From Halobellus clavatus (GTDB taxonomy: Archaea; Halobacteriota; Halobacteria; Halobacteriales; Haloferacaceae): a stretch of DNA of 64,000 nt. Positions 1,527 to 36,771 of this stretch are shown here, in pieces. The first letter of the stretch is position 1; each line of letters opens with the position of its first letter. The notes under the pieces are model-generated. The model saw nothing but the letters and a program-made list of their open reading frames with translations. It did no database searches and was not told where the DNA came from. The stretch spans positions 186,001 through 250,000 of the forward strand of contig NZ_FNPB01000002.1 in the NCBI RefSeq assembly GCF_900107195.1. Reading direction: 5' to 3'. The position numbers were made by a program, and so were the translations under genes.

Positions 1527-2726
1527 ATGCCGATCGATCCGCTCTACGCCCGCTATCCCTTCTTCGACGGGGCGCGTGAGGCCGTTCGCGAGGCGGATCT
1601 CTCCCCGGCGGCACTCATCGCCGAGGACGCGCCCGCCGTCGAGCGCGGCCGCGAGCGGGTCGAACGCGCGCTGATGGAGGGCACCGTCGCGGCCGAGGAG
1701 CCGGGACGCTGGGACCGACGCGAGCAGTTGCTCTCGTATCCGATCGCGCGCATCCTGGTCTCGCTGATCGATACGCCCGCCGCGGTGGACAAGTACGCGA
1801 CGGCGGAGGCGACGACCGCGCGCGAGCGGTTCCGCGCGGACTTCTCGGAACCCGACGAGGGCCCCGCGAGCCGACGGACCGCATCGCTCGAAACGGTCCT
1901 CCGGGAGTTCGACCTCGAAGGAACCGTCCGTCCGGACCGGGGCAACGGGCCGGGCGACCGCCGCGAGCGAACGGGCGCCTCCCGGTCGCCGTCGCACTAC
2001 TGGGTCGCGCTGGGCCCGTATCTCGACTTCGCCGAATCCGACTGGGGGAGTCGTTGGCGGCTCGTCAACCGCGAGGTCGAAGACGGCGAGGTCCGAATCG
2101 CTTCCGATCAACTGTACCGACTCCTCGAGGCCGCCGTCGAGGATCGGGTGGCGGCGGGACTCCCCGTCGAGGTGCGCGGGACCGACGGCGGCGACGCCAT
2201 CGCGGACGCGCTCGACCCGACCGTCGCGGCGCTCAAATCCCTCCTCGACGATCACGACACGGGCGCGCACGCCGGGGACGAAGCGGTCGTCCCGGCGCTG
2301 TTCCCGCCGTGTATGAAAGCGCTGGTCCGCCGGGCCAGAGAAGGCGAGTCGCTGTCGAGCCACGCGGAGTTCTCGCTGGTCTCGTTCCTCGTGGCGTTCG
2401 GGATGGACGACCAGGACGTGGTGACGCTTCTGGACGTCGGCGAGGACAGTCCGGCGGACGACGCTGCCGGGGGATCTCCGAACGAGTCCGCGGCGGACGA
2501 GGACCGCCCGCCCGCCGAGCGGATCCGTGCTCGTGTCGAGTATCTCGCCGATACCGACAGCACCCAGTTCCCACCCCCGTCGTGTACGACGATGCAGTCC
2601 TACGGAATCTGCGTCGATCCCGACGAGCGGTGTGAGACGATCTCACATCCCCTGTCGTACTACACCAGCGCTGTCAGCGAGGCTGGCGACGTCCGGGACT
2701 GGCGGGACGCGGCGAACGGCGACTGA
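1527..2726 (+). CDS. priL: DNA primase large subunit PriL
   Basis: Regulatory, Fe-S-containing subunit of the archaeal/eukaryotic-type primase; works with PriS (not in this window) to make primers. 399 residues. The N-terminal helical domain opens MPIDPLYARYPFFDGAREAV. The C-terminal domain has the conserved layout of the 4Fe-4S site: Cys262 (FPPCMKAL), Cys353 and Cys362 (SCTTMQSYGIC) and Cys369 (RCETISHPLSYY). Between them are Asp/Glu-rich linkers, for example around residues 310-335. The gene lies ~0.7 kb after pcn. A conserved hairpin element starts one base after its stop codon. Confidence 0.95.
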   Translation: MPIDPLYARYPFFDGAREAVREADLSPAALIAEDAPAVERGRERVERALMEGTVAAEEPGRWDRREQLLSYPIARILVSLIDTPAAVDKYATAEATTARERFRADFSEPDEGPASRRTASLETVLREFDLEGTVRPDRGNGPGDRRERTGASRSPSHYWVALGPYLDFAESDWGSRWRLVNREVEDGEVRIASDQLYRLLEAAVEDRVAAGLPVEVRGTDGGDAIADALDPTVAALKSLLDDHDTGAHAGDEAVVPALFPPCMKALVRRAREGESLSSHAEFSLVSFLVAFGMDDQDVVTLLDVGEDSPADDAAGGSPNESAADEDRPPAERIRARVEYLADTDSTQFPPPSCTTMQSYGICVDPDERCETISHPLSYYTSAVSEAGDVRDWRDAANGD

Positions 2727-2727
2727 G

Positions 2728-2806
2728 ACTGATTACTCTCGTCTCTTACCGCCGGGGCGCCGTCAGCGGGGGTGGCGCTCGGCGGTAACACGTGAGAGTA
2801 ATCAGT
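2728..2806. repeat. Dispersed hairpin element, copy 1
   Basis: Long inverted repeat. The outer arms are ACTGATTACTCTC (2728-2740) and its exact complement (2794-2806). The inner arms are TTACCGCCG (2746-2754) and CGGCGGTAA (2780-2788), separated from the outer ones by 5-base bulges, with a GC-rich tip. It begins one base after the priL stop codon and ends 31 bases before the stop of the convergent gene. A second copy (36665-36741) is the reverse complement with paired substitutions. It could act as a bidirectional terminator or be a MITE-like repeat. Confidence 0.85.
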
Positions 2807-2837
2807 ATGAGAGGCGGCACCCCGGGGACGACCGCAG

Positions 2838-36102: not shown

Positions 36103-36663
36103 ATGCGCCTCTTCGTCAGCATTGACCTCCCGGATCGCCTCGCCGAAGCGGTCGCCGACGCACAGGCGCGGTTCGCCGACGCCGACGGCCTCCGATTCGT
36201 CGCCCCCGAGCAGGCGCACCTGACGCTGTTCTTCCTCGGCGACACGGACCCCGACCGCCTCGACAGCGTGGAGGCGGCGCTCGACCCCGCCGTCGCCGAT
36301 ACCGAGGTGAAGCCGTTCGAACTCCGCGTCGGCGGCTTCGGCGTCTTCCCCGCCCTCGAATACATCAGCGTCGTGTGGGCCGGCGTCCGCGAGGGCAGCG
36401 GCGCGGCGGAGACGACCCGGCTCAACGCCGCCGTCGCGGACGAACTCACCGCGCTGGGCTTCGAGGACGACGAGCACGAGTTCACCCCGCACGTGACGCT
36501 GGCGCGGATGGACGACGCCCGCGGGAAGGGGCTCGTCCAGGACGTCGTCCGCGACACCGATCCCGACATCGGGGCGTTCGAGGCGACCGAGATCCAGCTG
36601 AAAGAGAGCACGCTCACCGACGCCGGACCGGAATACGACACCGTCGCCGCGTTCGAACTCTGA
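36103..36663 (+). CDS. thpR: RNA 2',3'-cyclic phosphodiesterase ThpR
   Basis: 186 residues from MRLFVSIDLPDRLAEAVADA. 2H phosphoesterase; it opens 2',3'-cyclic ends on RNA and can join tRNA halves in vitro. Both catalytic HxTx motifs are present: EQAHLTLFFLG near residue 40 and FTPHVTLARMDD near residue 128. The middle strand FELRVGGFGVFPALEYISVV is typical. A TATA box cannot be placed with confidence. The second copy of the hairpin element begins one base after its stop codon. Confidence 0.93.
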   Translation: MRLFVSIDLPDRLAEAVADAQARFADADGLRFVAPEQAHLTLFFLGDTDPDRLDSVEAALDPAVADTEVKPFELRVGGFGVFPALEYISVVWAGVREGSGAAETTRLNAAVADELTALGFEDDEHEFTPHVTLARMDDARGKGLVQDVVRDTDPDIGAFEATEIQLKESTLTDAGPEYDTVAAFEL

Positions 36664-36664
36664 T

Positions 36665-36741
36665 ACTGGGTACTCTCACTTTCACCGCCAAGCGCTCCCC
36701 CCGTTGACGGTGCCCGGCGGTAAGAGGCGAGAGTACCCAGT
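36665..36741. repeat. Dispersed hairpin element, copy 2
   Basis: Outer arms ACTGGGTACTCTC (36665-36677) and its exact complement (36729-36741); inner arms ACCGCC (36684-36689) and GGCGGT (36716-36721). Read on the minus strand it aligns with copy 1 (2728-2806) over almost its whole length; where copy 1 has GAT/ATC in the stem this copy has GGG/CCC, so pairing is kept. It starts one base after the thpR stop and ends 31 bases before the stop of the convergent transporter gene. Confidence 0.85.
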
Positions 36742-36771
36742 CTGCGTCCACGCCGTCGGCCGCTTCGGGCC

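Follow-up and report, generated by a model that had tools for sequence, protein, structure and literature searches.

Hairpins abutting stop codons in Halobellus clavatus as probable copies of a palindromic, non-autonomous mobile element

Two alignable hairpins of about 80 bp, each placed behind a gene, were found in a 64 000-nucleotide stretch of Halobellus clavatus DNA (the window). Their stems differ by paired changes, and the locus therefore raises the question of whether such hairpins are kept in place by the host as terminators or RNA elements, or have arrived as mobile DNA. We consider them to be copies of a non-autonomous palindromic mobile element, a miniature inverted-repeat transposable element (MITE), inserted with a 3-bp duplication, presumably by a transposase acting in trans (probability about 0.9).

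The two hairpins and their relatives

The two stretches were aligned together with their flanks, giving a mean column identity of 83%. Both copies were paired as the first-pass annotation had claimed, and the outer-stem change that it had described (ATT/AAT versus GGG/CCC) was borne out. Folding was compared with dinucleotide shuffles. With RNA parameters z was −7.4 and −6.2 for copies 1 and 2 (0 of 200 shuffles were as good) and with DNA parameters −7.4 and −5.7; on either strand both copies out-fold shuffled sequence by far. The preceding genes, named as priL and thpR from sequence, were matched by Pfam to the DNA primase large subunit and to a LigT-like 2'-5' RNA ligase/phosphoesterase, respectively. 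The copies had been placed one base past the stop codon; this proved wrong, since the unit is slightly longer and abuts the TGA directly (Table 1).

Table 1. Features of the two element copies in the window
Feature	Position	Strand	Basis
priL TGA stop, left copy of the 3-bp target duplication of copy 1	2724..2726	+	412-codon open frame ends here; Pfam DNA_primase_lrg
Family-1 palindromic element, copy 1, 81 bp	2727..2807	+	Edges from about 75 copies compared; fold
Copy 1 left outer arm, GACTGATTACTCTCG	2727..2741	+	Alignment and fold
Copy 1 right outer arm, GAGAGTAATCAGTA	2794..2807	+	Alignment and fold
TGA, right copy of the copy 1 target duplication	2808..2810	+	Flank comparison
TGA stop of thpR-like gene, left copy of the copy 2 target duplication	36661..36663	+	Pfam LigT_PEase / 2_5_RNA_ligase2
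Family-1 element, copy 2, 79 bp; internal orientation opposite to copy 1	36664..36742	-	Copy comparison; fold
TGC, right copy of the copy 2 target duplication, one base decayed from TGA	36743..36745	+	Flank comparison

The window holds no third copy, as had been noted. The proposed search of the whole genome and of relatives was run; it yielded about 20 copies of this family (family 1) in the same genome (3.75 Mb, 30 contigs), six of them 99–100% identical at unrelated loci; other Halobellus genomes hold as many as about 55. Family 1 was found in eight of 17 genomes of the genus in a first search and in nine in a second, each with its own subfamily; beyond the genus its copies are merely sporadic. 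The unit is 78–81 bp long (80 bp in 73 of 96 copies), has the form 5'-TAnTGnnTACTCTC...GAGAGTAnnCAnTA-3' and lacks coding capacity. Its outer 14 bp form terminal inverted repeats with 0–1 mismatches in 74 of the 96 copies, and its asymmetric internal loop (RTCTC opposite AAAGT) is conserved across genomes. Many copies sit between convergent genes. Both copies in the window lie about 31 bases from the convergent stop, which was rejected as a rule: over about 60 copies this distance varied between 7 and more than 300 bases. Three half copies in one genome (L217, L221 and L227 in G002) were considered as the ends of an insertion sequence and rejected; they are truncated elements.

Target duplication and decay of pairing

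Otherwise identical family-1 copies can have TGA/TGA flanks at one locus and TCA/TCA flanks at another, giving the arrangement TSA-[TAnTGnnTACTCTC ... GAGAGTAnnCAnTA]-TSA; the flanks therefore belong to the target. The 3-bp TSA duplication was intact in 69 of 96 distinct copies and missing in about a quarter, as expected for old ones. A filled site in a related genome (G005, L146) reads GCGGAC-TGA-[81 bp]-TGA-AAAGGG. The orthologous site of H. clavatus itself is empty and carries a single TGA (GCGGAC-TGA-AACGAG), with flanks 84% and 87% identical to the filled one. The priL locus is syntenic in the genus, and elsewhere no family-1 element is present there. The target duplications show that the hairpin arrived by insertion. 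A MITE-like repeat favouring gene ends had been one of the options offered by the first-pass annotation, and it was shown by the multi-copy subfamilies, the target-site duplications and the empty orthologous site.

In the logo of the joined sites (n = 91), G(-3) had a value of 0.66, C(-1) 0.79, G(+3) 0.68 and C(+5) 0.59 around the TGA. The consensus is the palindrome GNCTSAGNC, in which the preference reaches into the non-coding side. Such a palindromic target, duplicated over a constant length, is characteristic of a transposase with a 3-nt staggered cut.

The paired stem changes were examined by randomisation. Six outer-stem pairs were changed on both sides among the copies of the H. clavatus genome (n = 17), giving 20 cells against a shuffle mean of 7.8 (0 of 500 as high); this is the signal that the first-pass annotation had picked up. 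Within subfamilies, broken pairs outnumbered two-sided changes: 22 versus 0 in G002, 50 versus 11 in G006 and 174 versus 8 in family 2 (described below). Most stem changes within subfamilies being unpaired, pairing is kept in copies that are still moving and not after insertion. Of the earlier claim of selection for structure, the co-change of paired bases stood between subfamilies and failed within them: the paired differences distinguish lineages that spread one after another, each with matching arms, and do not reflect maintenance of an RNA at the individual sites.

Elements with mixed arms also exist, for example L022 and a G002 copy with a TAATG left arm and a TAGTG-type right arm, and they fit recognition of the arms as DNA. 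The orientation of family-1 copies relative to the TCA/TGA duplication was biased 34:17 (p = 0.024), which is unexplained if both arms are equal. Together with the conserved asymmetric internal loop, this bias hints against such DNA-arm recognition.

The insertion process is probably as follows. The element is a head-to-head palindrome of about 80 bp, made of two arms of about 37 bp with a small loop between them. A transposase supplied in trans, presumably of the DDE type, would cut within GNCTSAGNC, staggered by 3 nt across TSA (a TNA target), and joining of the element into the staggered cut would produce the 3-bp duplication. A copy with two matching arms could then multiply and found a new subfamily, which would give rise to the paired, seemingly compensatory differences between copies. 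Inserted copies decay.

Further families and the search for a mobiliser

Further families were found that have the same size and TA ends as family 1, the same duplication in the same target and the same hairpin fold, but a different sequence: family 2, with its diverged relative family 3, and family 4. A blind scan for inverted repeats of 40–150 bp with equal TSA flanks, in which families 3 and 4 surfaced, returned the 78–80 bp families and a single other match. Family 2 (TACTGTCGGACAG...CTGTCCGACAGTA) is 79 bp long (24 of 32 copies), with a TSA or sometimes TAA duplication, intact as TSA in 22 of 32. By end-motif count it has about 12 copies in H. clavatus and about 75 in G002, where one (L130 1748-1826) occupies the priL intergenic region in place of family 1, at the stop of the convergent gene. 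In family 3 (G007, L158 1642-1719), both arms of the outer stem differ from those of its relative family 2, the change being from ACAG/CTGT to CTATA/TATAG. Family 4 (TAGGGATTATCGTAA...; for example L202 7616-7693, L210, L216, L220 and L225 in G002) is 78 bp long in 25 of 26 copies; 25 copies lie in 1.56 Mb of G002, and it is widespread in a second genus of the same taxonomic family (L396-L412). All families fold end to end: an outer stem of 14–16 bp leads through an internal loop to an inner stem closed by a small loop.

Several family-2 loci were recorded in their own right. Copies of this family are often at stop codons, and four of those in H. clavatus (which include L162 1504-1582) are 100% identical. 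A recent H. clavatus copy (L294 1501-1585, contig C25) has mismatched flanks (left TGA, right TCA); recombination between two copies is possible. In G002, a second palindrome (ATAGTAGCGTTTGCAA...TTGCAAACGCTACTAT), which may itself be a small mobile element, interrupts one family-2 copy (L222 2082-2243).

The PF01609 loci of G000, G002, G003 and G006 yielded neither an autonomous element nor a transposase with matching ends; a profile search for the PF13586 transposase gave no matches, and no longer element with such terminal inverted repeats and a TNA duplication was found in 1.56 Mb of G002. An IS5-family insertion sequence in G006 (L180 1441-2384, NF033579 transposase) was rejected as a partner, its apparent TCA duplication being part of 9-bp CTCTCAGAC repeats on both sides. 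What looked like long elements bounded by family-2 or family-4 ends were spans between two separate short copies. Viral contigs gave no match for family 1 and 22 single matches to the family-2 end, by estimate about chance for a 16-mer. A 3-bp TNA duplication is typical of the IS1031 group of the IS5 family, and an IS5/IS1031-like mobiliser is a guess by analogy with this duplication. The likeness lies in its length and form; the group differs in that no such element with TA ends was found and the ends of the PF01609 elements here are different. Recognition may instead be by some unusual enzyme. The families of unrelated sequence (1; 2 with 3; 4) could be a single class defined by structure and length, having in common only the 77–80 bp full-length hairpin, the TA ends and the TNA/GNCTSAGNC target, a reading that we regard as unlikely. 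If it were true, one enzyme would recognize a folded hairpin of fixed size and not a sequence.

Stop codons and relation to known elements

Among the family-1 copies with an intact duplication, an open frame of at least 80 codons ended at the duplicated TGA in 55 of 69, and all ten of the genes tested there belonged to real Pfam families. In most family-1 copies, those behind priL and thpR included, the TGA that is duplicated serves as the stop codon of the gene, so that insertion leaves the protein unchanged. By the same criterion, with genes called by a heuristic based on codon usage, 57% of non-coding CTSAG sites qualified, which sets the expectation; family 1 is modestly enriched (p = 6e-5), and family 2 (12 of 22) shows no excess. 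The counts in the 1.56 Mb of G002 were 9/10, 18/32 and 15/25 for families 1, 2 and 4, again with no excess for the latter two. TGA ends 254 of 399 called genes in 464 kb of the H. clavatus genome, and such stops account for about a third of the non-coding CTSAG words. GNC-TGA is a very frequent ending of haloarchaeal genes, which would make the TGA stop the commonest harmless target, restored by the duplication, and insertions within genes would be lost by selection. The stop-codon bias appears to stem largely from the target word and from this loss of harmful insertions, family 1 alone exceeding the target-word expectation.

The family-1 figures, in the whole set and in G002, would also be obtained if the machinery actively sought stop codons beyond the target word, for instance via translation or mRNA 3' ends. 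This is very unlikely: families 2 and 4 show no excess, the palindromic target logo spans the non-coding side as well, the family-1 excess could come from the loss of harmful promoter or operon insertions, and the expectation rests on those heuristic gene calls. Targeting of stop codons as such had been entertained and was weakened by the 57% null.

A bidirectional terminator or 3'-end processing hairpin maintained by the host at convergent gene ends would explain a strong hairpin on both strands right after a stop codon and the many copies between convergent genes. It is nevertheless extremely unlikely, as neither foot carries a T-tract (flanks read by eye), relatives lack copies at the same intergenic region, pairing decays inside subfamilies, families 2 and 4 frequently sit away from stops and the target duplications denote arrival by insertion. 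The small-RNA option of the first-pass annotation, like the terminator, gained no positive support: conservation in situ was not seen, and Rfam 15 gave only sub-threshold hairpin matches (best 20.7 against a gathering threshold of 197 bits). Transposition in a folded single-stranded form by a Y1 (HUH) transposase, as in REP/BIME elements with RAYT or in PATEs derived from IS200/IS605, would suit the full-length imperfect hairpin and the conserved asymmetric loop of family 1 but is hardly tenable, because Y1 elements make no target duplication and adjoin a fixed tetranucleotide, whereas the flanks here co-vary as TGA/TGA or TCA/TCA, and the single TGA of the empty site strongly disfavours it.

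A non-autonomous mobile element remains the preferred reading, and the Halobellus elements resemble MITEs in being short and non-coding, in their terminal inverted repeats and fixed-length duplication, and in dispersed copies that have spread recently in near-identical bursts to gene-poor locations. They are unlike MITEs in being wholly inverted repeat without a unique core and in forming unrelated families of 77–80 bp, and no parent transposon was found. MITE-like behaviour and form are claimed here, not descent from a named transposon. REPs, like these elements, are extragenic palindromes near gene ends; they owe their spread to RAYT Y1 transposases, and no target duplication is made. The SMR-A and SMR-B elements of Haloquadratum walsbyi are about 80–110 bp long (HqIRS41, 80 bp), with inverted repeats unlike those of known transposons and a marked target preference; as described, they duplicate no target sequence and insert into other mobile elements (PMC3119063). 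They share with the Halobellus elements a haloarchaeal host, similar size, inverted repeats matching no known transposon and target preference; the 3-bp duplication and the use of ordinary gene ends as targets set the latter apart, a distinction drawn from the published descriptions of the SMRs (HqIRS40-43, 55). PATEs and other IS605-type elements are likewise haloarchaeal and non-coding with palindromic ends, and differ in lacking terminal inverted repeats and target duplication (PMC3119063). Literature searches yielded no description of the Halobellus elements. These full-palindrome MITEs are a new group, shared by Halobellus and relatives within its taxonomic family; its details are new and its kind is known.

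That families of unrelated sequence keep one length and one fold poses a puzzle of element recognition, which is the part most worth following up. Hairpins after stop codons that show compensatory changes should be treated with caution, as they can be mobile DNA and not regulatory RNAs or terminators. Selfish DNA can spread harmlessly in these archaea, where the target word is the commonest gene ending and the duplication rebuilds the stop codon.
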